Below are positions 1-21,113 of a stretch of 46,198 nt of DNA, piece after piece. Position numbers and translations under genes: made by a program. Under the pieces are notes generated by a model. It was given only the letters and a program-made list of their open reading frames with translations. It made no database searches and had not been told where the DNA came from. Within the stretch, counting starts at the first letter, position 1. Every line of letters starts with the position of its first letter. The DNA is from Acidobacteriota bacterium (GTDB lineage Bacteria; Acidobacteriota; Vicinamibacteria; Vicinamibacterales; Fen-181): positions 1-46,198 of the forward strand of contig JANYLG010000092.1 in NCBI GenBank assembly GCA_025363775.1, in the 5' to 3' direction.

Positions 1-156
1 CGCAGAGGGGTCGGGGCTGACGATGAGGAGTCGGGAACGGACGCAGACGGGTCGGAACGGACGAGGAAGGGTCGGAACGGACGCAGAGGGGTCGGGAACG
101 GACGCAGAGGGGTCGGAACTGACGCAGAGGGGTCGGGGCGGACGAGGAGGGGTCGG
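1..156. repeat. Degenerate 20-bp tandem repeat array, left copy
   Basis: Seven full units of 20 or 21 bp plus partial ends. On this strand each unit is a 13-base core like GTCGGAACTGACG followed by a 7-base linker (CAGAGGG, ATGAGGA, CAGACGG, AGGAAGG or AGGAGGG). Units start at 10, 30, 51, 71, 91, 112 and 132, with a GTCGG stub at 152. The core varies mainly at AA/GG and T/G positions. The array starts before the window. The same family occurs in the opposite orientation at 20939-21113. The rest of the gap (157-320) holds no gene I can support. A GATAAT at 296-301 is a weak candidate -10 for the gene at 321. Confidence 0.93.
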
Positions 157-320: not shown

Positions 321-2864
321 ATGCCGCAGGAATGGCTCACTCTCCGCGCCGGAACCCTGGTGGAAGCCCGAGGTGACCGCTGGAAAATCGTCGAGATGGT
401 CGATCACGGCGCGTGCGCCTCGTGCCGCATGGTCGGCGCCGCCACGTCGAATATCGGCCTCCGCCGGACGCTGCTGGTCCCGTTCGACCGACCGCGGCCG
501 GTCGAATTCCGAACGCGGCCGCGCCGCGTCGGCCGACACCGGTGGATGTTGGCGCTGCGCTCGCTGCTCGCGGCCGATTCCACGCTTGCCGGCCTTCGCG
601 GCGCCGCGTGCGCCCGTCTCGACCTGCTCGGGTATCAGCTGGAGCCGGCGCTGGCCTGCGCGCGGGGTGCGTCGCGCCTCCTCCTTGCGGACGAAGTCGG
701 CCTTGGCAAGACGGTGCAGGCGGGGTTGATCCTCGCCGATCTCTCGGCGCGAGCCGAGTCTGTTCGCGCGCTCGTCCTGTGTCCAGCCGGCCTCTGTGCG
801 CAGTGGTGTCACGAGCTCGAGGATCGGTTCGGCCTCCGCCCGGATCTGGTGGACCTCGCGACCCTCCGTCGCCTGCTGCAGCACTCGTCGCCCGACGTCG
901 GCCCGTGGGACCGGCTTGGCATTGCGGTAGCGTCGATCGACTTCGTCAAGCAGCCCGACGTCCTCCAGGGAATGGGGCACATCCGCTGGGACCTGCTGGT
1001 GGTGGACGAGGCGCACCTGTGCGCCGTAGCGCCCGAGCGGGCCGCGGCCGTCAACTGGCTGGCCCGTCGGTCGAGGCGCGTGGCGCTGCTGACGGCCACC
1101 CCTCACCCCGGGGAGGCCGGCGCCTTCGACGCGTTGATCCGAATAGGACGGCTGCCGGGCGAAGGACCGCTGCTGATGTTCCGTCGAACGCGGGCCAGCC
1201 TGGGCCTGCCGGTCTCCCGCCATGCTCGCGTGCTCGCTGTCAGGCTCTCGCCCGGCGAGCGTCGAATGCACGCGTTGCTGGAACGGTACACGACCCGGGT
1301 GTGGGAGGCCTCGTCGGCCGGCGGGTCGCGCGCGGACGCCCGCCTCGCGATGATCGTGCTGCGCAAGCGGGCCTCGTCCGGAGCGGCGCCCTTGCTGGCG
1401 TCGCTCGTGCGCCGCTTGCGGTGGCTTGCTGCTCCTGACACGGCCGCGACGTCGCAACTCCTGCTGCCGTTCGACGGAGATGGCGAACACGAAGCCGCGG
1501 ACGAGGAGCCGGGCGCCGTCCTTGCCGCACCAGGTCTCAGAGATGCCGCCGCCGAACGTCAGGTCCTCGAGCGGCTGGTCGATCTTGCCGGCGCCGCGGT
1601 CGAGCACGACAGCAAGTGCCGCGCGCTGGTCCGGTTTCTGCGACGCGCCGGCGAACCGGCGGTGGTCTTCACCGAGTATCGCGACACCCTGTCACATCTG
1701 GCCGGCCTGTTCGCGCCAGCCGGCGGCGTGGCGATGATTCACGGAGGGATGGACCGCGCATCGCGATCCGACGCCGTCCGCGCATTCACCCGGGGAACCT
1801 CGCGCCTGCTCCTCGCAACCGACGCCGCCGCGCACGGCCTGAACCTCCAGGCAAGGTGCCGCCTCGTGATCAACTTCGAGTTGCCGTGGAACCCGCTGAG
1901 GCTCGAGCAGCGGGACGGCCGTGTGGATCGCATCGGCCAGCACCGGGCCGTCCATGCCGTGCATCTGCTGGCCAGGGGTACGAGCGAGGCGAAGGTGCTC
2001 GAGCGCCTGACGATGCGTGTGGAACGAATCCGACAAGTGATGGGCGAGACGGCCGATCTCCTGGGGCGGGTAACAGAGGCCGAGGTCGCGGAGAGCGTGT
2101 TCGATCCGAACGTTGTCCGCTCGCGTCGCAAACCGGCCGGCCGCCGCATCGTCGAGACGTCGTCTCCGCGGTGCAACACGGAGTCGCCATCGGAGTTGGT
2201 CGCCCGGTCCAGCCTGGCGGAGGAGGCCGAAGCCGAAGCGGCAAGGCTGCGGAGTGTGCGCCAACTCGGCCGCCCCGGCGAACTGGTCCTGCAGGGCGTC
2301 CTCGCAAGACTCGATCGAACCGGCCCGTGGTGGACGACGCTGCGGGTCCGACGCGAATGGCGGGCGCCCGACGCAGGCCGCGAGGTCGTCTTGCGCAATC
2401 GCATGCTGGCGCTGTTCCGGGCGGACGTGGTTGACGGACGCGGACTGCTGTTGGATCAGTTCCTCCTCGCGCTGTCGATCGGTCTACAGGGTCGCGACGA
2501 GGAGGACGGAGCGGCAATGCGCCGCCTGTGCGAATCGGACTCCCCCGTGATGGCTGCGCTGCAGGCGGAGGCCGGACGACAGGCGGTCGAACGGCTGGCC
2601 GGATTGAGGACACTGGTGATACCGCGCCTCGAGGCGCGACGCACCCGCGAGGTCGCTGTGGCCCTCGTCGACGACCGCGTGCCCGCCGTCGCCTTTCAGC
2701 CGGGACTCTTCGACCGCCGGGCGCTGCGCGCGGATGAAGAAGACCGCCGCGCACGCAACCTCCAGGAGGAAGAGACGAAGCGCATGCTGAGCTCCCTCGG
2801 GCAAGCGACAGACCTTTCGCTGGCTGGCGCGCCGCGCCTGGTCCTGGCGGCGGTGGGCCGGTAG
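321..2864 (+). CDS. SNF2/RapA-type helicase, DrmD-like (DISARM)
   Basis: An 847-aa superfamily 2 ATPase of the SNF2/HepA class. The sequence shows Walker A DEVGLGKT at residues 124-131, the DEAH box at 229-232, TATPH at 258-262, the C-lobe ATDAAAHGLNLQ near 499-510 and motif VI QRDGRVDRIGQ at 530-540. A small N-terminal region (about 1-75) may be a RapA-like beta domain. The C-terminal 250 residues are Arg/Glu-rich with no recognised domain. In class 1 DISARM, DrmD is a SNF2-like helicase next to an Eco57I-type adenine methyltransferase, exactly the pair seen here (20-bp gap to the next gene). The start is fixed by an in-frame stop at 309-311. No clear ribosome site is present. A generic SNF2 helicase outside defence is possible but less likely given the neighbour. 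Confidence 0.85.
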   Translation: MPQEWLTLRAGTLVEARGDRWKIVEMVDHGACASCRMVGAATSNIGLRRTLLVPFDRPRPVEFRTRPRRVGRHRWMLALRSLLAADSTLAGLRGAACARLDLLGYQLEPALACARGASRLLLADEVGLGKTVQAGLILADLSARAESVRALVLCPAGLCAQWCHELEDRFGLRPDLVDLATLRRLLQHSSPDVGPWDRLGIAVASIDFVKQPDVLQGMGHIRWDLLVVDEAHLCAVAPERAAAVNWLARRSRRVALLTATPHPGEAGAFDALIRIGRLPGEGPLLMFRRTRASLGLPVSRHARVLAVRLSPGERRMHALLERYTTRVWEASSAGGSRADARLAMIVLRKRASSGAAPLLASLVRRLRWLAAPDTAATSQLLLPFDGDGEHEAADEEPGAVLAAPGLRDAAAERQVLERLVDLAGAAVEHDSKCRALVRFLRRAGEPAVVFTEYRDTLSHLAGLFAPAGGVAMIHGGMDRASRSDAVRAFTRGTSRLLLATDAAAHGLNLQARCRLVINFELPWNPLRLEQRDGRVDRIGQHRAVHAVHLLARGTSEAKVLERLTMRVERIRQVMGETADLLGRVTEAEVAESVFDPNVVRSRRKPAGRRIVETSSPRCNTESPSELVARSSLAEEAEAEAARLRSVRQLGRPGELVLQGVLARLDRTGPWWTTLRVRREWRAPDAGREVVLRNRMLALFRADVVDGRGLLLDQFLLALSIGLQGRDEEDGAAMRRLCESDSPVMAALQAEAGRQAVERLAGLRTLVIPRLEARRTREVAVALVDDRVPAVAFQPGLFDRRALRADEEDRRARNLQEEETKRMLSSLGQATDLSLAGAPRLVLAAVGR

Positions 2865-2884
2865 CGGCGGGCCTGACTCCTTCC

Positions 2885-5800
2885 ATGCTGTCCGGTTTCT
2901 CCGGCTCGCTCGTCTCCGGGTACTTCGCAGAGACACTCCTCCACGAGATGTTCGCGGGCGAGCTGGGCGAGGCCACCTGCGAGCAGGCGCGCAAGCAGTT
3001 GCTGCGATGGCGGCGCCAACACGCCCGCGATCTGGGCCCGGTGAGCGCGGCGAGGAGCGTGCACGATCTTTGCGCAGCGCCGTTGGTACGGGCACTCGGC
3101 TTCGATCCGACCATCCTCTCGGTGAGCACGGAGGGGTCGCCTGTCCTCTCCCGGCTTGGCTGTGACGCGTCCATGCCAATGCTGCTCGTCACGTCGTGGG
3201 CCGAACTGCTCGATCCCGCCTGGCGCTCGACGGCGAAGCGGGTCATCGCCGCCGGCCCGGCGTGGTGCCTGTGCACGAACGGCCGCCGGCTCCGGCTGGT
3301 GGATGCCCGCCGCGCGTTCGCACGCTCCTTCATGGAGTTCGACCTCGACTGCGCGGTGGACGACGAATCGTCGTTCGCCGTGCTGTGGGGGCTGCTTCGT
3401 CGCGTCAGCTTCGAGTCGCCGACGCTGATCGGCCGGGTCATTCATGCGTCGTCGCGCCATACGGTCGGCGTGTGCCGATCGCTGCGGGATGGAGTGGTCG
3501 AGGCCATCACGGAATTGATCTCGGGACTTGCCGGCGTGGTTCCGCGTTCGATCGGCACCGCGGCGGTCAGCCTCGACCTCGTCCACGAACAGGCCCTCAC
3601 CATCGTCTACCGGATCCTCTTCCTGCTGTTCGCCGAGTCGCGATGCCTGGTTCCGCTCTGGCATCCGGTCTATCGCGAGAGCTACTCGGTCGAGGCGCTT
3701 CGCGATCTCGCGGAGCGGCCGGGCCGCGCACGTGGCCTGTGGGAAACGCTGCAGGCTATTTCACGGCTCGCCCACACGGGCTGTCGCGCCGGCAACCTGC
3801 TCGTCACCCCCTTCAACGGCCGGCTGTTCGCGCCCGAAGCGACGCCGCTCGCGGAGAGCCGGAGAGTGACCGAGGAGTCGGCGCGACGCGTACTGCTCGC
3901 GCTGTCAACGACGCCGGGACGCGAGAATGGCGGTCGCGCGCGCATCGAGTATCGCGACCTGGGAGTCGAGCAGCTTGGCGCGGTGTATGAGAGCGTGCTC
4001 GATTACCGGCCGCGCCTCGTTCACGCGTCGGCATCCGATCCGCCGAGCCGGCGGTCCCGTCCGAGCGAGTCGTCAGGCGGCGGCGGTCGGGTCCCGCGAG
4101 TGAAGGCGCAGCTCCTGCCAGGAAGCGGCGTGAGGAAAGCCACGGGGACGTTCTACACGCCGAGGTCGATCACCACCTACCTCGTGCGGCGCACGCTCGG
4201 CCCGCTGGTGGCCGGAGCCCCACCCGAGCGGATTCTCTCGTTGCGGGTGCTCGATCCCGCGATGGGAAGCGGCGCCTTCCTCGTGGCCGCCTGCCGTTAC
4301 CTGGCAGGAGCCTACGAGGCGGCGGTGATCGCCCGCGGGGGGTGCCACGCAAGCGACATCTCCGACGCCGATCGACGCGGGTTCCGAAGGCTCATCGCGC
4401 AGCGTTGCCTGTACGGCGTGGACCGGAACCCGATGGCGGTCCAGCTGGCGCGACTGTCGTTGTGGTTGTGCACCCTTGCGCCTGACCGCCCGCTGACGTT
4501 CCTCGATCACCACCTGCTCGTCGGCGACAGTCTCATCGGTGCGTCGCTGGACGACCTTCGGCGACCGCCTCCCGGGAGCGCACCCGGACGTCGACCTCCA
4601 CATCGAGACGCCCCGTCACTGCCGCTCTTCGACGTTGAGGAGATCGGGCCGGCGATGCGCGCCGTCCTGCCAACCAGGCTCCGCGTCGCGTCAATACCGG
4701 ACGAGAGCCTGGCCGTCGTGCGCGAGAAGGAGCGCCTTCTCGCGGGCCTTTCCGGTCCATCGTCACCCATCGCGACCTGGAAGGTCGCGGCGGACCTGTG
4801 GTGCTGCTTTGCGTTCAAGAACGGCAACCCGGCGGCGAACGCCGGTGTCTTCTTCGCGCTGGCGGACTCGGTGCTGTCGGGAAGGTCAGCCCTCCCCGCG
4901 CAGACCATCGCCACCTGGCTCGCCGACGCGCGGGCTGCCGCAGCGGCACGCCGGTTCTTCCACTGGACACTCGAGTTTCCAGAAGTCTTCTACTCACCCG
5001 ACGGGTTGCCGAGCCCCGACGCCGGGTTCGACGCGGTGGTCGGCAATCCGCCGTGGGACATGATCCGCGGCGACAACCAGGGTGATGCGGACCGCGAACT
5101 GGCGCGGGCGGATGCGGCCCACCTGCTCCGATTCGCGAGGTCGTCGGGCCTGTACCGCGAGCAGGGCGACGGACACGGGAACGTCTTCCAGCTGTTCGTA
5201 GAGCGCGCGTTCCGCCTGGCGCGGGCCGGCGGGCGCATCGGCCTCGTCGTCCCGTGGGGTCTTGCCGCGGACCGCGGCTGCGCCCCGCTTCGGAGACTAC
5301 TCTTCGACCGCTGCCAGGTGGACTCCTGGATCGGCTTCGAGAACACCGGCGCGATCTTTCCCATTCACAGGAGCGTTCGCTTCCTGCTGCTCACCGCGTC
5401 GACCGGGGGCCGGACCGAGGCAATCCTGTGCCAGCTCGGTCAACGGGATCCCTCGGTGCTCGATTCAGCGAGCGATCTCCCCGGCGACGCTGTGATATCG
5501 GGATCCGTCGTGCTGACCAGGCGGCTGCTCGAGCGGCTCTCTCCCGACGACCTCGCGGTTCCCCATGTGAAGACGACGACGGACCTGGCGCTGCTCGAGA
5601 AGATCACGTCGAACATCCAGCATCTGGCGTCGCCTGACGGATGGGGCGCGGTGTTCGGCCGGGAACTGAACGCGAGCGACGATCGCGGGCACTTCGACCG
5701 CTCTGCGGAAGGACTGCCGGTGCTCGAAGGGAAGCACATCGAACCGTTCCGCGTGTCGGCGCCCGCGGACGTCCGACGGCTGCCAAGGGCGGCCGCCTCG

Positions 5801-6313
5801 AGGCTGCTCGACCGCGCGCGAACCTGGGGGCGTGCGCGCCTTGCCTATCGCGACGTGGCCAGCGCCACGAACCGGCTGACGCTGATCGCAGCCGTCGTTC
5901 CGGCCGGGTGCGTCACGGTGCACACGCTGTTCTGCCTGAAGACACAGCTATCGGCACGCGATCAGGCCTTTCTGTGCGGCATTCTCAACAGCTTCGTCGC
6001 CAACTACCTGGTGCGCCTGCGCGTCACGACGCACGTCACGGCGGGAATCGTCGGGCGGCTGCCCGTCCCCCATCCGCCGGCCGACTCGCAGCTCTACCGA
6101 CACATCGCGGACCTCGCTGCGAGGCTCGCGCGCTCGGTCGAGCCGATGCGCGACGCCGCCTACCCGGAACTGCAAGCCGCCGCGGCGCGCCTCTATGGCC
6201 TGACGCTCGAAGAACTGCAGCACGTGCTCGGGACCTTTCCGCTCATCGACGACGAGACGAAGGCAGGGACATTGACGAGATTTGAATCTGGCGATTTGCT
6301 TCACGAGCGCTGA
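2885..6313 (+). CDS. Eco57I-type N6-adenine DNA methyltransferase, DrmMI-like
   Basis: A 1142-aa protein of the Eco57I/PglX family, expected to methylate adenine in host DNA. Residues 420-426 carry TGTFYTP, motif I DPAMGSGAF is at 457-465, and the catalytic motif IV NPPW at 721-724. The C-terminal third holds a TaqI-type target-recognition region, with EGKHIEPF near 946. The N-terminal part resembles the nuclease-like region of type IIG enzymes, including TNGRRLRL at 131-138. Where those enzymes usually show a hydrophobic ExK strand followed by W and LD, this protein reads LLVTSWAELLD (100-110), so the catalytic ExK appears lost. That fits a methylase-only DISARM DrmMI better than a type IIG restriction enzyme. 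Cotranscribed with the helicase upstream. Methylation motif unknown. Confidence 0.85.
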   Translation: MLSGFSGSLVSGYFAETLLHEMFAGELGEATCEQARKQLLRWRRQHARDLGPVSAARSVHDLCAAPLVRALGFDPTILSVSTEGSPVLSRLGCDASMPMLLVTSWAELLDPAWRSTAKRVIAAGPAWCLCTNGRRLRLVDARRAFARSFMEFDLDCAVDDESSFAVLWGLLRRVSFESPTLIGRVIHASSRHTVGVCRSLRDGVVEAITELISGLAGVVPRSIGTAAVSLDLVHEQALTIVYRILFLLFAESRCLVPLWHPVYRESYSVEALRDLAERPGRARGLWETLQAISRLAHTGCRAGNLLVTPFNGRLFAPEATPLAESRRVTEESARRVLLALSTTPGRENGGRARIEYRDLGVEQLGAVYESVLDYRPRLVHASASDPPSRRSRPSESSGGGGRVPRVKAQLLPGSGVRKATGTFYTPRSITTYLVRRTLGPLVAGAPPERILSLRVLDPAMGSGAFLVAACRYLAGAYEAAVIARGGCHASDISDADRRGFRRLIAQRCLYGVDRNPMAVQLARLSLWLCTLAPDRPLTFLDHHLLVGDSLIGASLDDLRRPPPGSAPGRRPPHRDAPSLPLFDVEEIGPAMRAVLPTRLRVASIPDESLAVVREKERLLAGLSGPSSPIATWKVAADLWCCFAFKNGNPAANAGVFFALADSVLSGRSALPAQTIATWLADARAAAAARRFFHWTLEFPEVFYSPDGLPSPDAGFDAVVGNPPWDMIRGDNQGDADRELARADAAHLLRFARSSGLYREQGDGHGNVFQLFVERAFRLARAGGRIGLVVPWGLAADRGCAPLRRLLFDRCQVDSWIGFENTGAIFPIHRSVRFLLLTASTGGRTEAILCQLGQRDPSVLDSASDLPGDAVISGSVVLTRRLLERLSPDDLAVPHVKTTTDLALLEKITSNIQHLASPDGWGAVFGRELNASDDRGHFDRSAEGLPVLEGKHIEPFRVSAPADVRRLPRAAASRLLDRARTWGRARLAYRDVASATNRLTLIAAVVPAGCVTVHTLFCLKTQLSARDQAFLCGILNSFVANYLVRLRVTTHVTAGIVGRLPVPHPPADSQLYRHIADLAARLARSVEPMRDAAYPELQAAAARLYGLTLEELQHVLGTFPLIDDETKAGTLTRFESGDLLHER

Positions 6314-6379: not shown

Positions 6380-6571
6380 TCATTCCAGAGAGAAGGGAGG
6401 CCAATCGTCCTGGGCGACGGGCCGGCGAACAAGCGCGGCGTCACCAAGCAGCGTCTCGAGTGTCGCGGGATCGAGCGTCAGCCACGACGGCACATGCGCC
6501 CGGAGTTCCGCCAGCACGCGGACGTCGTCTGCCGTCGTCGGCAGATCGCGATCGAGATCGAGATCGAGCAT
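6380..6571 (-). CDS. Small acidic hypothetical protein, partner of the nucleotidyltransferase
   Basis: A 63-codon frame starting at the ATG at 6571, eight bases after the stop of the nucleotidyltransferase gene. The frame stays open upstream to an ATG at 6625, which would give 81 aa and a 47-bp overlap. The downstream start is preferred because it restores tight operon spacing. The N-terminus (MLDLDLDRDLP) comes from an iterated GATCGA-like hexamer. The rest is acidic and likely helical, ending DDWPPFSLE. No family recognised. Its position suggests a partner or antitoxin, but it is too short for a HEPN domain. It converges on the methyltransferase gene with a 66-bp gap holding nothing obvious. 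Confidence 0.55.
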   Translation of the reverse strand: MLDLDLDRDLPTTADDVRVLAELRAHVPSWLTLDPATLETLLGDAALVRRPVAQDDWPPFSLE

Positions 6572-6578
6572 CGGCAGT

Positions 6579-7109
6579 TCAGAAGCCGCGTTCCAGCGCA
6601 TGCCACCGCTCCAGTAGATCCGCACGTTCGAAATACCGTTTCACCTCGTCACGATTGACGCCATCCAGTCGGAGCAGATACGCGATATCGACCAGTTCCT
6701 GCCACGTCCGATCGGGCGCGTTCCGCATCGCGTGTACCTTCATCGCAATCAGGTGCTCAGGGCGCGGAACCGCGATCGGACGGCCGCCAGGACCAGTGAG
6801 TATTCTGGCGCCGCCGAACAGGCGGGCGGCGGTGTCTCCCTGGACGTAGACCACATCAACCCGCCCCAGGGACCGGTCCGCATGCAGATGGTTCGAATAG
6901 CCTGACGACCGATGGAGCGTCGAGTAGCCCCGCGACTCCAGGAACCGCACCAGTTCGCCTTGTGCCTCGGCCTCGGTCGCAAGGTCGAGATCGAGCGTCA
7001 TGCGCGGACAGCCATAGGCGGCGAGCGCGACGCCGCCGACGACGGCACAGTGAAAACCGGCCGTGGACAGGAAAGCACCGACCTCGTCGTACGCGCGCCC
7101 AAAGTCCAC
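6579..7109 (-). CDS. Nucleotidyltransferase-fold protein (MNT/AbiEii-like)
   Basis: A 176-aa protein with the DNA polymerase beta-type nucleotidyltransferase signature: GG at residues 25-26, paired aspartates D40 and D42 in TLDLDLATE, and a third candidate carboxylate D85 in GRVDVVYV. The C-terminal half (PEHLIAMKVHAMRNAP) is typical of the AbiEii/MNT-type group often found in toxin-antitoxin and defence loci. The frame is open far upstream only because of GC bias on the strand opposite ygiQ. The GTG at 7109 is the best start: it begins exactly where the domain begins, and CACAAT (7117-7122 on this strand) lies 7 bases before it. Encoded opposite to the drmD-drmMI-like pair and followed by a 63-codon gene. 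Substrate unknown. Confidence 0.72.
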   Translation of the reverse strand: MDFGRAYDEVGAFLSTAGFHCAVVGGVALAAYGCPRMTLDLDLATEAEAQGELVRFLESRGYSTLHRSSGYSNHLHADRSLGRVDVVYVQGDTAARLFGGARILTGPGGRPIAVPRPEHLIAMKVHAMRNAPDRTWQELVDIAYLLRLDGVNRDEVKRYFERADLLERWHALERGF

Positions 7110-7256
7110 GGAGGAGATTGTGACACAGCGCGGACCCGGCTGCACGCCGTGTATCCCTCGACATGGCCTATCCTCTCTCCCTCGTGCCTGCTGGAAGAAC
7201 TGCCAGATCTGGAAGGCGAGTTGCTTCGCGCGCGCTGATGAAGCATCCTCGGGATC

Positions 7257-9017
7257 ATGGCCGCCGCACGAACGCACGCTCCGCCGAACCCCACGGCGTT
7301 TCTCCCGATGTCTCGCGCCGAGATGATTGCGCGCGGCTGGGACGAACTGGATGTGCTCATCATCACGGGTGACGCCTACGTGGATCACCCGTCGTTTGGC
7401 GCTGCGCTCGTCGGGCGCGTGCTGGAGGCGGCGGGCTACCTGGTGGGCATCATCGCGCAGCCGGATTGGAGGAACGGCGAGTCGATCCGGGCCATGGGCC
7501 GACCGCGGCTCTTCGTCGGTGTCACGGCGGGCAACCTGGATTCGATGCTCTCGAACTACACCGCTGCCAGGCACAAACGCAAGGAGGACGTGTACAGCGA
7601 GGGTGGCGTCCCAGGCCGTCGCCCAAACCATGCGGCGGTGGTCTACTCGCAGATGGCGAAGCGGGCGTTTCCCGGCGTGCCCGTGGTGCTCGGCGGCATG
7701 GAGGCGAGCATGCGCCGCGTGGCGCACTACGATTATTGGGAGGACAAGCTGCGCCCGTCCATCCTGGCGGATGCCAAGGCCGACCTGCTCGTGTATGGCA
7801 TGGGCGAAACGGCGGTGCGCGAGATCGCGCAGCGGCTGGCCGCGGGCCGCGCCGACCTCGGCGGCATCCTGGGCACGGCGTTGCTGCTGGGCGCGAAGGC
7901 GACGGCGGCGGCGGATTTCAGCGATTGCCTCGTGCTGCCTTCGTGGGAAGACCTGCAGGCGGACAAGATCCACCTGATGCGGCTGACGAAAGTGGTCGAG
8001 GCGCAGCAGACGCCGCATTGCGGCAGGCGCATGGTGCAGATGCACGGCAATCGCGCGGTCGTGATGGAACCGCCCGCGATGCCCGTGGATGGTCCCGACC
8101 TCGACGCGCTCTACGAGTTGCCATTCCAACGTCGGCCGCATCCGTCCTATGTCGAAGCCGTGCCTGGCTTTGCGACGATCAAGGAGTCCATCGTCGTGTC
8201 GCGCGGCTGTGCGGGCGGCTGCACCTTCTGCGGGTTGGGCTTGCACCAGGGGAAATTCCTCTCCAGCCGCAGCGTGGATTCGGTGCTCGCGGAGATCCGC
8301 ACGCTGGCCGCGTCGGAGGCGTTTCGCGGCACAGTCTCCGATCTCGGCGGGCCCACGGCGAATCTCTACGGCGCGCGGAACGGACATGTGGATGCGTGCA
8401 AGGCATGTCACCGTCCCAGCTGCCTCTGGCCGGCGATCTGCGCGAACCTCGCCATTGACGAGCAACGGGGCATCGACCTCCTGCGCGGTGCCCGCGCGCA
8501 GCCCGGTGTCAAACACGTCTTCGTGCAATCCGGCATCCGCATGGACGTCGCGTTGCGCACCCCGGCGTATCTCAGGGAGTTGGTGCGGCACCACGTCTCC
8601 GGTCACATGAAAGTCGCGCCCGAGCACATGCATCCGGCCGTGCTGCGTCGGATGCGTCGAACGGCTGAGGATTTCCCGGCGTTCATGGAGAAGTTCTTCG
8701 AGGAGAGCGCGGCGGCTGGCAAGGAGCAGTACCTCGTGCCGTACTTCATCTCGAGTTTTCCCGGTTGCACCGACCATGAGATGGGGGCGGTTGAGGAGTT
8801 CCTGCGGAAGGAGAAGTGGAATCTCCAGCAAGTACAGGACTTCATCCCGTTACCCATGACCGCCGCGGCGGCGATGTATGTCACCGGCCTCGACTTCGAC
8901 TCCGAGCAGCCCATTCCGGTGGTCCGCAATGCCGGAGAGCGCGAGCGTCAGAAACGCGCCCTGCGCCCCACCCGGGCGCACCGAGCCCGAAACAGACAAC
9001 TGGATACGGTGGACTGA
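7257..9017 (+). CDS. ygiQ: YgiQ family radical SAM protein (UPF0313)
   Basis: A 586-aa protein of the YgiQ/UPF0313 family. An N-terminal B12-binding-like region runs to about residue 180 ([12 protein letters not shown] near 37-48, [12 protein letters not shown] near 143-154). The radical SAM core has CAGGCTFC at 318-325, the CxxxCxxC spacing characteristic of this family for binding a 4Fe-4S cluster. A second Cys-rich stretch (CKACHRPSC) follows near 380. The family's reaction is not established. The gene stands alone: it diverges from the nucleotidyltransferase (147-bp gap) and converges on the DUF1634 gene. The ATG at 7257 has no strong ribosome site, and a later ATG at 7308 ([13 protein letters not shown]) is possible. 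Confidence 0.93.
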
Positions 9018-9199: not shown

Positions 9200-9502
9200 T
9201 CAGATTCTGAGAGTGGCGACCATGAGACTCCCGATCAGAATGACGAGGACGCCGCTCGTGAGCGCCACGAAGAGCCAGTCGCGCCCGAGGGCGTACTCGA
9301 CGACCGAGACGACGACGCGTGCGACGGGGGTGGCCATCAGGATGACCAGGCCAACGTGGGTCAGGTTGGCGGCCAGGCCGTGGTTGACGCCGGCAAGCTG
9401 CAATACGAGGCCGGCTGCCAGCAGCAGCGTGCTGCTGATCGTGCCCCAAGTCAGCACCTTGCCGAGCCAGCGTTCCAGCCTGCCGGTGGTTGCCGGGATC
9501 AT
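9200..9502 (-). CDS. DUF1634 family membrane protein
   Basis: A 100-aa protein with three predicted membrane segments (about residues 17-37, 44-63 and 78-97) matching the DUF1634 pattern, including the NLTHVGLVILMATPVARV stretch. Its ATG overlaps the stop of the upstream tauE-like gene by four bases (ATGA, 9499-9502), so the two are translationally coupled. DUF1634 genes are commonly found beside TauE/SafE transporters. The role is unknown, perhaps an accessory subunit. The 182-bp gap to ygiQ downstream (9018-9199) is convergent and shows no gene. Confidence 0.85.
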   Translation of the reverse strand: MIPATTGRLERWLGKVLTWGTISSTLLLAAGLVLQLAGVNHGLAANLTHVGLVILMATPVARVVVSVVEYALGRDWLFVALTSGVLVILIGSLMVATLRI

Positions 9503-10332
9503 CGCGACCTCGTCAGCATGAGAGCGCCGACCGCGAGCAGGATGGCGACGAGAAGGAGTTTCAGCCACTTCGCCCGCGCACGCGCGGCCAGCGCGAATCC
9601 CGCGCGCGATCCCGCCAGCACGCCCAGCACGGTCGAGGCGGCCATCCACGCGACGATCTCTCCCCTCCCGTAGTAGATCACCGCGCCGGCCGTGGCGGTG
9701 ACGCCGATCATGAACGCGCTGGTTGCCGCGGCGGCCCGCAGAGGCACCCCGCACCAGGCGTTCAGCGCGGGCACCTTCAGGATGCCCCCGCCCACGCCGA
9801 GCAGCGACGACACGCTGCCCGCGACGAACGACACGCCCATTGCCAGCGGCAGTCGCTTCACCGCGTAGGTCACGACCGCGCCGCTCTCCTCTTCGTAGTA
9901 GCGCCCTCCGAGGCGCCCGGGGTCGGCTTCGGGATCGAGCAGCACGTTCCGGCGCTCGAGGCGCCCGAGCATCGCAAGCGCCGACAGGACGGCGACGACG
10001 CCGAACATGCGCTGGAGGGTGGTGGCGGAGAGCATCGCCGCGACGAGACCGCCGGTGAGGCCGCCCGCCGTGGTGGCGACCTCCAGCACCATGCCGAGCC
10101 GGAGGTTGACCAGCGACCCTCCCATGCGGCCCGAGGAGACCACGCTCGACGTGGCGATGACGGTGGTGAGGCTGATGCCGACGGCGAGGCGCATCGGCAC
10201 GTGCAGCGCCAGGACGAGGAAGGGCACCAGAAAGACCCCGCCGCCCAGGCCAAGAAGGGCGCCGACGATGCCGGCTGCCGTCCCCGCAGCGAAGAGAACC
10301 AGGGTCAGCAGCAATGAGAGTTCGGGAACCAT
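9499..10332 (-). CDS. TauE/SafE family anion permease
   Basis: A 277-aa inner membrane protein with about eight hydrophobic segments and the two TauE/SafE half-repeats, each with a glycine-rich stretch: GALLGLGGGVFLVPFL near residues 25-40 and SSLLGVGGGILKVPAL near 185-200. The family moves sulfite, organosulfonates or other small organic anions across the inner membrane. The actual substrate cannot be read from the sequence. Starts 2 bases after the stop of the ketopantoate reductase-like gene and overlaps the DUF1634 gene by 4 bases, so the three form one operon. Confidence 0.92.
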   Translation of the reverse strand: MVPELSLLLTLVLFAAGTAAGIVGALLGLGGGVFLVPFLVLALHVPMRLAVGISLTTVIATSSVVSSGRMGGSLVNLRLGMVLEVATTAGGLTGGLVAAMLSATTLQRMFGVVAVLSALAMLGRLERRNVLLDPEADPGRLGGRYYEEESGAVVTYAVKRLPLAMGVSFVAGSVSSLLGVGGGILKVPALNAWCGVPLRAAAATSAFMIGVTATAGAVIYYGRGEIVAWMAASTVLGVLAGSRAGFALAARARAKWLKLLLVAILLAVGALMLTRSR

Positions 10333-10334
10333 GG

Positions 10335-11267
10335 TCAGGGCTGAACGGGCGACCCGTGCTCGAACGCCTTGAGGAGGCCGTAGAGCGTGGCCATCACCGG
10401 CGTGGGAATCCCGACGGCGCGGCCCCGGCGCACCACGGTGCCCATCAATGCCTCCAGTTCCAGCGGCTTCCCCGACGTGATGTCCACCATCATCGACGAG
10501 CGCATCGTCTTTGGGCTGTTGTCCATGTAGCGCATCTTCTGGGCGCGGACGTCCGCGGCGACCGGCACGCCGGCGTGGTGCGCGAGCGCTTCGACCTCGG
10601 TCATCGCCTGGTCGAACACCTCCTGGAATGCGGCCTGCGCCCAGGCCGGGCCGACGGGAAGACGCGCGGCCGCCGTGAGCCCGGCGATCGGCGCGAGGAA
10701 GATGAACTTCTCCCAGATCGGGATCCGGCTGTCAGCCGCCGTTTCCGCCTGGATGCCGGCGCCTGAGAGCGCCTCTTGGATACGAGCGACGCGGTCGGTC
10801 ACCACACGATCGCCGAACGCCTCGCCGAACACGATCCTCCGCACGGTGCCAACGTGCTCGACGACGCCAGGCGCGACCAGGGTGGAGGCGATGTAGGTTG
10901 CCCCGGCGAGCACCGGGGCCGGGCCGACCACGGACGAAAGTTCGTCCGCGCTGTCCACGCCGTTCTGCAGCGTGAGTACCGAGGTCCCTTCGCCGACGAG
11001 CCGCGGCACCAGCGGCAGCGCCTGCGGGTTCGAGTAGGTCTTCACGGCGAAGACCACCAGATCCACAGGTCCGACGTTCGACGGGTCGGCTTCCACGCGC
11101 ACGCGGACGACGAAGTCGCCAAGACCACTTCGGACGCAGAAGCCGCGATCGCGAATCGCGTCGAGGTTCGCGCCCCGCGCGATCAGCGTCACGTCGTGGC
11201 CGGCCTGCGCCAGGCGCGCGCCGTAGTAACCGCCCACCGCTCCCGCACCGATGATGGCCACTCGCAT
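10335..11267 (-). CDS. Ketopantoate reductase family oxidoreductase (PanE/ApbA-like)
   Basis: A 310-aa NADP-dependent 2-dehydropantoate 2-reductase family protein. The Rossmann motif GAGAVGG is at residues 7-13, and K76 (FAVKTY), N102 (NGVDS) and the candidate catalytic lysine K187 (IWEKF) are in family positions. The family reduces ketopantoate to pantoate for coenzyme A synthesis. Paralogues act on other 2-keto acids, and the operon with a TauE-type anion permease instead of panB/panC hints at a different substrate. First gene of the operon. A TACATT -10-like hexamer ends 7 bases before the ATG, so the mRNA may be leaderless. Confidence 0.88.
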   Translation of the reverse strand: MRVAIIGAGAVGGYYGARLAQAGHDVTLIARGANLDAIRDRGFCVRSGLGDFVVRVRVEADPSNVGPVDLVVFAVKTYSNPQALPLVPRLVGEGTSVLTLQNGVDSADELSSVVGPAPVLAGATYIASTLVAPGVVEHVGTVRRIVFGEAFGDRVVTDRVARIQEALSGAGIQAETAADSRIPIWEKFIFLAPIAGLTAAARLPVGPAWAQAAFQEVFDQAMTEVEALAHHAGVPVAADVRAQKMRYMDNSPKTMRSSMMVDITSGKPLELEALMGTVVRRGRAVGIPTPVMATLYGLLKAFEHGSPVQP

Positions 11268-11274
11268 CAGGTCG

Positions 11275-11280
11275 AATGTA
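11275..11280 (-). promoter_or_regulatory. Candidate -10 (TACATT), near-leaderless start of PanE-like gene
   Basis: TACATT on the minus strand, 7 bases before the ATG at 11267. Counting 7 bases past the hexamer puts transcription start at 11268, one base from the start codon. No convincing -35. The rest of the gap to 11468 holds a short dispersed sequence at about 11366-11418 (a TTCGACTCG...GCTCGCTCACGG-type module) and no gene. Confidence 0.55.
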
Positions 11281-11456
11281 GCACGAGTCCGGCGGGTCGT
11301 CGCCGGCGCAGAGAGAGGCGGACGTGGACCGGACTGGCGTGACGGGCGACTGGCGAGGTCGGCCGTTCGACTCGCGGTTCACTCCGCTCGCTCACGGCGC
11401 CCTGAGCCAAGTCGCCCCTCGACCGTGATCGGGGCGACACCAGCCGAATTCGCGGT

Positions 11457-11462
11457 TAGAAT
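11457..11462 (+). promoter_or_regulatory. Candidate -10 (TAGAAT), leaderless start
   Basis: TAGAAT ends 6 bases before the ATG at 11469, placing +1 on the A of the start codon. GCGACA at 11434-11439, 17 bases upstream, matches 4 of 6 bases of the -35 consensus. No Shine-Dalgarno sequence fits between the hexamer and the ATG. Confidence 0.6.
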
Positions 11463-11468
11463 CCGCTT

Positions 11469-13181
11469 ATGTATCCACGCCGACCCGTCTTCTTCCTCGT
11501 GCTTCTCCTTGCCGCCGCCTGGATGTCCGGGCTCATGGTCAGCGCGCACCGCGACAACCAGGGCGGCCCGGCCGACCTGGTGATCTTCAACGGGAAGGTG
11601 TACCCGGGGCACGGGATCGGGTTTGCGGAAGCGGTAGCGGTCCGCGGCAATACGGTGCTGCGCGTCGGGACGAACCAGCAGATCAAGAGCCTCGCCGGCA
11701 GCGCGACGAAGCTGATCGACGCCCGCGGCGGATCGGTGCTGCCTGGGCTGAACGACTCGCACCTGCACGTGATCAGCGGCGGCCTGACGCTGCAGCAGGC
11801 GCTCCTGGGCGACGCCACGTCGATCGAGGCGCTGAAGACGATCATCCGCCAGTTCGCGGCGGCCCACCCCGACCGCCCCTGGGTGCTCGGGCGGGGATGG
11901 ACCTACACGGCGGTTCCCGGCGGCCTGCCCACCCACCAGCAACTCGACGAGGTGGTCTCTGACCGCCCCGCGGTGATGGTGGCGTACGACGGGCACACCG
12001 CGTGGGTCAACTCGCGCGCGTTGAAGCTTGCCGGCATCACGGGCACCACGCCGGATCCCGATGGCGGCGTCATTGTGAAGGACCCGAAGACCGGCGAGCC
12101 CACCGGCGTGCTGAAGGAGAACGCGCAGGGCCTCGTGCGCAAGCTGGTGCCCGCGTGGACGCGCGACGATCGACTGAACGCGGTCCGTGCCGCGGTGGCC
12201 ATGGCTCACAAGTTCGGTGTGACCAGCGTCCAGAACGCGGGCAGCAGCAGCGAGGACATCTCGCTGCTCGACACGCTCCGGAAGTCGGGCGAGTTGAGGC
12301 TCCGCGTCTACTCGGCGATGTCGGTGGAGCCTGGGTTCACCGAGGCGGACGCGGATCAGATTCAGCAGGTGTGGAAGACCTACGGCGACGATCCGCTGCT
12401 GAAGACGGGCGCCGCCAAGCTCTTCGTCGACGGCGTCATCGAGTCGCACACCGCGGTGATGCTGGCGCCGTACGCCAACAAGCCAATCAAGGGCGACCCG
12501 CTCTGGAAGGCCGCGGAGTTCGAGCGCGTGATCACGCTGCTCGACAAGCGGGGCTGGCAGGTGTGGGTGCATGCGATCGGCGACGGCGGGGTGCGGATGA
12601 CGCTCGATGCCTACGAGCACGCGGCAGCCGCGAATCCCGCGCCGGCCCGCGGACGCCGGCATCGCATCGAGCACATCGAGACGATCGACGCGGCCGACAT
12701 CCCGAGATTCGCGACGCTGAATGTCATCGCGTCGCAGCAACCATTCCACGGTACGCCCGACCTGCTCGGCGTGTGGATCCCGAACATCGGGCACGAGCGC
12801 GCGTCTCGGGGCTGGGCCTACGGCAGCATCCTGAAGACGGGCGGCCACGTCGCGTTCGGCAGCGACTGGGCCGTCGTGTCGATGGACCCGCGGATCGGGA
12901 TCCACACGGCCGTCAACCGGACGTCGCTCGACGGCAAGCCGGCGGGCGGGTGGCGTCCCGAACAGAAGATCCCGTTGGCCGCCGCGATTGACGGCTACAC
13001 GTCAGGCGCGGCCTACGCCTCATTCGACGAGCGCCGCAAGGGCACGCTGGCGCCCGGCATGCTGGCCGATCTCGTCATCCTCTCCACCGACATCTTCGCC
13101 ACGCCGCCCGAGCGCTTCCTCGACACGAAGGTGGAGACGACGGTCTTCGACGGCAAGGTGGTCTACACGCGGAGCCGTTGA
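11469..13181 (+). CDS. Exported amidohydrolase, YtcJ-like (amidohydrolase family 3)
   Basis: A 570-aa metal-dependent amidohydrolase with an N-terminal signal peptide or anchor (about residues 5-26). The HxH metal-binding pair is H98/H100 in LPGLNDSHLH. Downstream family elements are VWVHAIGDGG, HRIEHIET and FGSDWAV with the conserved Asp. This pattern matches YtcJ-type enzymes, whose natural substrates are mostly unknown. The active site is complete, unlike the amidohydrolase at 39826. Probably leaderless, from TAGAAT at 11457-11462. Single gene, convergent with the desuccinylase-like gene (49-bp gap). Confidence 0.92.
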   Translation: MYPRRPVFFLVLLLAAAWMSGLMVSAHRDNQGGPADLVIFNGKVYPGHGIGFAEAVAVRGNTVLRVGTNQQIKSLAGSATKLIDARGGSVLPGLNDSHLHVISGGLTLQQALLGDATSIEALKTIIRQFAAAHPDRPWVLGRGWTYTAVPGGLPTHQQLDEVVSDRPAVMVAYDGHTAWVNSRALKLAGITGTTPDPDGGVIVKDPKTGEPTGVLKENAQGLVRKLVPAWTRDDRLNAVRAAVAMAHKFGVTSVQNAGSSSEDISLLDTLRKSGELRLRVYSAMSVEPGFTEADADQIQQVWKTYGDDPLLKTGAAKLFVDGVIESHTAVMLAPYANKPIKGDPLWKAAEFERVITLLDKRGWQVWVHAIGDGGVRMTLDAYEHAAAANPAPARGRRHRIEHIETIDAADIPRFATLNVIASQQPFHGTPDLLGVWIPNIGHERASRGWAYGSILKTGGHVAFGSDWAVVSMDPRIGIHTAVNRTSLDGKPAGGWRPEQKIPLAAAIDGYTSGAAYASFDERRKGTLAPGMLADLVILSTDIFATPPERFLDTKVETTVFDGKVVYTRSR

Positions 13182-20899: not shown

Positions 20900-20938
20900 C
20901 TACGGAGCTTCTGGCCGACCACCGCCTGCTGCCTTCAT

Positions 20939-21113
20939 CGTCAGTTCCGACCCCTCTGCGTCAGCCCCGACCCTCCATCGTCAGTTCCGACTCTTCATCG
21001 TCAGTTCCGACCCCTCTGCGTCAGCCCCGACTCTTCATCGTCAGCCCCGACCCTTCATCGTCAGTTCCGACCCTTCTGCGTCAGTTCCGACTCTTCATCG
21101 TCAGTTCCGACCC
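20939..21113. repeat. 20-bp tandem repeat array, right copy (inverted relative to 1-156)
   Basis: Eight exact 20-bp periods plus a 15-base partial unit. Read on this strand, the 13-base core is CGTCAGTTCCGAC or CGTCAGCCCCGAC, followed by a 7-base linker (CCCTCTG, CCCTCCA-type, TCTTCAT, CCCTTCA-type or CCTTCTG). Units start at 20939 and every 20 bases to 21079, with the partial at 21099. It is the reverse complement of the array at the window's left edge. It ends 2 bases before the candidate -35 of the tetR promoter. Confidence 0.95.

Follow-up and report, generated by a model that had tools for sequence, protein, structure and literature searches.

A SNF2 translocase and an adenine methyltransferase related to DISARM proteins form a two-gene chromosomal module, putatively for host DNA methylation, in one order of Acidobacteriota

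We analyzed a contig of 46,198 nucleotides (C213, taken in its entirety and hereafter called the window) from the draft genome of an Acidobacteriota bacterium (3.79 Mb, 83% complete). Near its left end, a gene for a SNF2 DNA translocase lies directly upstream of a gene for an Eco57I-class N6-adenine DNA methyltransferase. The pair is probably a chromosomal module of two genes that is vertically inherited, methylates DNA and has no recognisable nuclease, with a putative role for the host. The fuller proposal, a SNF2-coupled epigenetic methylation system of DISARM stock that is near-core in an acidobacterial order and serves the host rather than defence, seems to us evenly balanced between right and wrong. 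The pair is neither a partial DISARM system nor similar to a mobile defence island, and our literature search found no description of it.

The first-pass annotation of the sequence had recognized a SNF2 helicase beside an Eco57I-type methyltransferase, followed by a nucleotidyltransferase locus and ygiQ. Both ORFs were confirmed, in agreement with Pfam, and the downstream genes were confirmed by profile matches (Table 1). The helicase and methyltransferase genes are both on the forward strand, with a gap of 20 nt. On the opposite strand (6380-7133), the nucleotidyltransferase gene and then the 81-aa ORF overlap by 47 nt and look like a toxin-antitoxin-type pair; they lie beside the helicase and methyltransferase genes in two genomes only, that of the window and its close relative G072. 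The TauE-PanE-amidohydrolase flank further right lies outside the module and is a marker of the ancestral site.

Table 1. Features of the window around the helicase-methyltransferase pair
Feature	Coordinates	Strand	Basis or remarks
Dispersed tandem repeat, 20-bp units	1-156	.	Tandem repeat scan; contig C107 starts in the same repeat
SNF2 (RapA/DrmD-like) DNA translocase, 847 aa	321-2864	+	Pfam SNF2-rel_dom, Helicase_C; AlphaFold model closest to RapA
Walker A region DEVGLGKT (aa 124-131)	690-713	+	D124, V126, G127, G129, K130, T131 invariant in 45 homologues
DEAH box (aa 229-232)	1005-1016	+	D229, E230, A231, H232 invariant in 45 homologues
Helicase motif VI QRDGRVDRIGQ (aa 530-540)	1908-1940	+	Q530, R531, G533, R534, R537, G539, Q540 invariant in 45 homologues
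Eco57I-class N6-adenine DNA methyltransferase, 1142 aa	2885-6313	+	Pfam Eco57I, N6_Mtase; AlphaFold model closest to PglX/BrxX, CamA
Motif GTFYTP (aa 421-426)	4145-4162	+	F423, Y424, T425, P426 invariant, G421 nearly, in 57 homologues
AdoMet-binding motif I DPAMGSGAFLV (aa 457-467)	4253-4285	+	D457, G461, S462, A464, L466 invariant in 57 homologues
Catalytic motif IV NPPW (aa 721-724)	5045-5056	+	Invariant in 57 homologues
81-aa ORF	6380-6625	-	Downstream of the methyltransferase, strand opposite to the pair
Nucleotidyltransferase, NTP_transf_5/AbiEii	about 6579-7133	-	Profile match
YgiQ	7257-9017	+	TIGR03904, 730 bits
Right conserved flank (9499-13181): TauE	9499-10332	-	Pfam
Right conserved flank: PanE	10335-11267	-	Pfam
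Right conserved flank: amidohydrolase	11469-13181	+	Pfam

The PADLOC model closest to the helicase is DrmD (273 bits). Against the NCBIfam DrmD equivalog NF038317 it scores 309 bits, where the cut-off is 610 and the genome's own DrmD reaches 1059.5. The protein therefore falls below the curated DrmD cut-off and does not qualify as a class 1 DISARM member by this measure. Its AlphaFold model (mean pLDDT 85.6) is closest to the structure of RapA (6bog), which also tops the sequence-profile search among solved structures, while in sequence the helicase is nearer to DrmD than to RapA (309 vs 153 bits). In six genomes of family f3 (L128, L131, L133, L147, L165 and L171), the helicase is encoded by two ORFs, a core (roughly 500-620 aa) and a C-terminal one (roughly 200-410 aa). 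This points to a separable C-terminal domain, unless the splits are frameshifts.

For the methyltransferase, the closest PADLOC model is DrmMI (353 bits). Its AdoMet-binding and NPPW motifs are intact and it has no cognate nuclease alongside, as expected of an orphan adenine methyltransferase. The AlphaFold model (mean pLDDT 88.8) has its nearest folds in PglX/BrxX (8q56, 8c45 and 9ewz; the best full-length matches) and CamA, both of which are nuclease-less.

It had been suggested at first reading that drmA, drmB and drmC might lie to the left of the window, beyond the terminal repeat. This repeat is outside the module and explains the assembly break. Another contig of the same genome, C107, starts in the same repeat and is 94% identical over almost 5 kb to the left flank of G072, the nearest relative, whose pair is 96% identical to that of the window. 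On these two grounds we infer that C107 is the left continuation of the window, the join being drawn from synteny since the repeat broke the assembly. The first 20 kb of C107 encode an S9 peptidase, threonine aldolase, dipeptidase, QueF and HU, and tblastn found neither drmA nor drmB in them, which rules out concealed drmABC genes over this distance. The 20-bp unit of the repeat (consensus CGCAGAGGGGTCGGGACGGA) recurs in the window at 20932-21113, with about 80 matches genome-wide. It occurs on dozens of contigs, frequently at their ends, and is the probable cause of many assembly breaks in this genome.

Class 1 DISARM genes are present elsewhere in the genome, divided over two short contigs (loci L009 and L011). 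Contig C131 carries drmD (1099 aa, well above the cut-off) and a drmMI cut by the contig end, and C218 carries drmB and the terminal part of drmA, so that the notion of a mere DISARM fragment was rejected; a simple motif look revealed no drmC after drmB. The binning of both contigs into this genome was taken on trust; DrmB is likewise present in G072, a member of the same genus. Identity to the genome's DISARM proteins is 30% for the window helicase (against DrmD) and 28% for the methyltransferase (against DrmMI). With identity this low, the window pair consists of distant homologues of the DISARM genes, not copies of them.

DUF1998/MZB proved misleading as a marker of DrmB, since it mostly picked up a helicase of 800-900 aa that the majority of genomes carry, and we therefore counted DrmB with the DrmB model instead. 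It was found in 17 of 193 genomes, 9 of the 102 with the pair and 8 of the 91 without it, and never on the contig that carries the pair. Being equally frequent in both groups and never on the same contig, DrmB indicates that the pair neither requires nor tracks DISARM.

The methyltransferase survey covered these 193 genomes of the class, largely drafts, with families and order as given by the group codes of the search. Strong matches occurred in 102 genomes, all belonging to 12 families of one order (102 of the 124 genomes there), and 9 further genomes gave weak, DrmMI-like matches only. A phylum-wide draw of 396 genomes yielded 31 matches, every one in the same order. Families f8, f13 and f14 are without the pair, by loss or original absence. 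Two of the pair-bearing genomes, G186 and G189 of family f15, are single contigs. No orthologues were found in phage and plasmid records, the top plasmid matches being at most about 30% identical.

We fetched about 60 loci and located their helicases by tblastn and codon-position GC. Wherever the contig reaches far enough, the helicase gene is directly upstream of the methyltransferase gene and co-directional with it, with a spacing mostly of -4 to +70 nt, so that the two genes make up one tight operon. Using the genome's own DrmB and the C-terminal part of its DrmA as tblastn probes, we detected neither protein within up to about 8 kb of the pair in these loci. Without drmA and drmB, these loci lack the full drmA, drmB and drmC set that defines a class 1 DISARM locus.

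Across families, the site has the order HU-QueF-Smr-pair-TauE-PanE-amidohydrolase. The left flank common to families comprises a regulator (c23), HU, QueF and Smr; the window holds its part of the right flank (9499-13181), and C107 holds HU, QueF and c23. Relatives without the pair keep the flanks. All that is left of the pair in G144 and G109 is a C-terminal remnant of the methyltransferase (about 180 and 71 aa), and G095 has a broken helicase remnant at the site, while no trace of the pair was seen between QueF and PanE in G107, G115 and G116. This pattern bears the marks of an ancestral pair, placed at one locus in most families of the order, that some lineages have lost through deletion or decay, and not those of a recently acquired island.

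In 31 genomes, identities of both proteins correlated with those of rpoB (Mantel rho 0.62 for the methyltransferase and 0.63 for the helicase, p 0.001) and with each other (0.85). The methyltransferase tree recovered 7 and the helicase tree 8 of 12 well-supported rpoB splits; with shuffled names, the methyltransferase tree recovered 0.08 on average. Four of the 12 splits conflict with the trees of the pair, and occasional transfer or tree error may lie behind them. Between the window and G072, dN/dS was 0.25 for the methyltransferase, 0.28 for the helicase and 0.12 for ygiQ, and the pair is under purifying selection.

In a wider FastTree analysis, in which long branches were noted, each gene formed three clean clades, with clade A separate from B and C at a support of 100: clade A, the window-type pair; clade B, DISARM DrmD-DrmMI, whose longer loci continue with drmA and drmB; and clade C, mostly proteobacterial, with a DruE-like helicase upstream in the loci inspected. 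The methyltransferase of clade A stands apart from DrmMI of clade B. The likeness to DrmD-DrmMI read from the sequence at first thus holds as relatedness by PADLOC and NCBIfam, although the helicase stays below the DrmD equivalog cut-off and the pair forms a separate clade. The pair and DrmD-DrmMI of class 1 DISARM have a common ancestor, the former being a domesticated derivative or an independent branch.

The first-pass annotation had also offered a minimal two-gene defence module. The two-gene unit itself recurs in nearly 60 further loci, and a survey of the kind it called for finds the pair standing alone in the order; the defence reading did not gain support. It is weakened by the non-defence context, which the annotation itself had named as a ground for refutation: the orthologues sit at one metabolic/housekeeping locus, descend largely vertically, occur in a single order and show no dependence on DISARM. 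Still, a minimal, vertically kept defence deserves to be weighed, in which the methyltransferase marks self and the SNF2 translocase blocks unmarked DNA without cutting, as in BREX. The nearest profile relatives of the pair are DISARM proteins, the methyltransferase fold is nearest to BREX PglX, and repeated loss fits a dispensable defence. Against this stand the single fixed locus in one order only, a tree largely following rpoB and the lack of phage or plasmid copies. According to the authors of PADLOC, defence systems are marked by a conserved operon architecture, by diverse contexts and by a wide distribution (PMC8565338). The adjacent, co-directional genes of the pair show the operon-like architecture, whereas its flanks are common to families instead of diverse, and strong matches are in one order only instead of over distantly related organisms. 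As only one of the three hallmarks holds, we favour a host methylation role as the probable reading and regard a BREX-like defence as unlikely, albeit a serious contender. Some points go against host methylation as well: the pair was lost in several lineages and is therefore non-essential, its dN/dS is above that of ygiQ, its trees conflict with four of the 12 well-supported rpoB splits, and family models place it nearest to defence proteins.

Two further explanations seem to us far less credible. The pair might be a split type IIG restriction enzyme, with nuclease and methyltransferase in one protein and the translocase in the other; the methyltransferase does match type IIG models (up to 204 bits), and its N-terminal alpha/beta region (aa 56-153) resembles, by eye on the predicted model, a PD-(D/E)XK-like core. 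Yet across 57 homologues no D, E, K or H is conserved in aa 1-240, the position of a type IIG nuclease, so that a conserved active site is lacking there; Pfam gave no nuclease match in the protein, and its nearest folds lack nucleases too. We consider this very improbable. Scarcely any credence is left for a DISARM helper that provides DrmAB with methylation or translocation in trans. The window genome and G072 both have DrmB, and C131 and C218 carry drmD, drmMI, drmA and drmB pieces, but DrmB is missing from 93 of the 102 genomes with the pair, is as frequent without the pair and is always on another contig, and DISARM has a drmD and drmMI of its own. This explanation is largely refuted by the absent co-occurrence.

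Under the favoured host methylation role, we infer in vivo DNA methylation by the methyltransferase, with the helicase as its partner. The methyltransferase would place N6-methyladenine at one DNA motif of the host chromosome, and the SNF2/RapA-like protein would travel on double-stranded DNA in cooperation with it. The translocase may clear bound proteins or RNA polymerase, or may read the methylation state. The outcome would be epigenetic control or genome upkeep, not phage restriction. If the pair does methylate for the host, near-core chromosome biology would include a helicase-methyltransferase combination that phage defence also uses, and a bacterial methyltransferase would have a SNF2 translocase coupled to it. 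Where annotation pipelines apply relaxed definitions, pairs of this kind may be scored as partial DISARM, which would inflate the number of incomplete systems counted.

We compared the pair with known systems. For type I DISARM, PADLOC requires DrmA, DrmB, DrmC, DrmD and DrmMI (PMC9252829). The pair is like DrmD and DrmMI of class 1 DISARM in gene order and protein classes, and these are the closest family models for both proteins. It differs in its 28-30% identity to the genome's own copies, its separate clade, the absence of drmABC, a helicase about 250 aa shorter, a fixed locus and vertical descent. In clade C (L117, L058, L105 and others), a DpdE/DrmD-like helicase likewise directly precedes a DrmMI-like methyltransferase, which is 24-34% identical to the window enzyme over the matched part. 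Unlike the window pair, these pairs come from scattered taxa, form their own clade and are preceded by a DruE-like helicase in L117 and by a homologue of the same size in L058 and L105. The three-gene row of DruE-like helicase (1757 aa), DpdE/DrmD-like helicase and DrmMI-like methyltransferase (L117, 1400-13480; also L058, L105 and L180) occurs in Proteobacteria and some Acidobacteriota, scores below NCBIfam cut-offs and is perhaps an uncharted defence variant. The existence of three sister clades, one alone, one with drmAB and one with a DruE-like helicase, also hints at a portable SNF2-methyltransferase core that different systems have reused.

PglX/BrxX of BREX is the best full-length structural match to the methyltransferase, with a sequence identity of only 14%, and no other BREX genes were seen beside the pair. 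In structure and, among proteins of solved structure, also in sequence, the helicase is nearest to RapA, the SNF2 ATPase that recycles RNA polymerase; it is nevertheless closer in sequence to DrmD, shorter, and tied to a methyltransferase. CamA of Clostridioides difficile is an orphan methyltransferase present in all genomes of the species and needed for normal sporulation (PMC8187626). Like the window enzyme, it combines an adenine methyltransferase fold without a nuclease (TM-score about 0.67 on CamA) with taxon-wide conservation; it differs from the pair in having no helicase partner, in being species-wide rather than order-wide and in its known recognition site. Taken together, CamA is the nearest functional parallel to the pair, and DISARM and BREX are the nearest parallels in sequence and fold.
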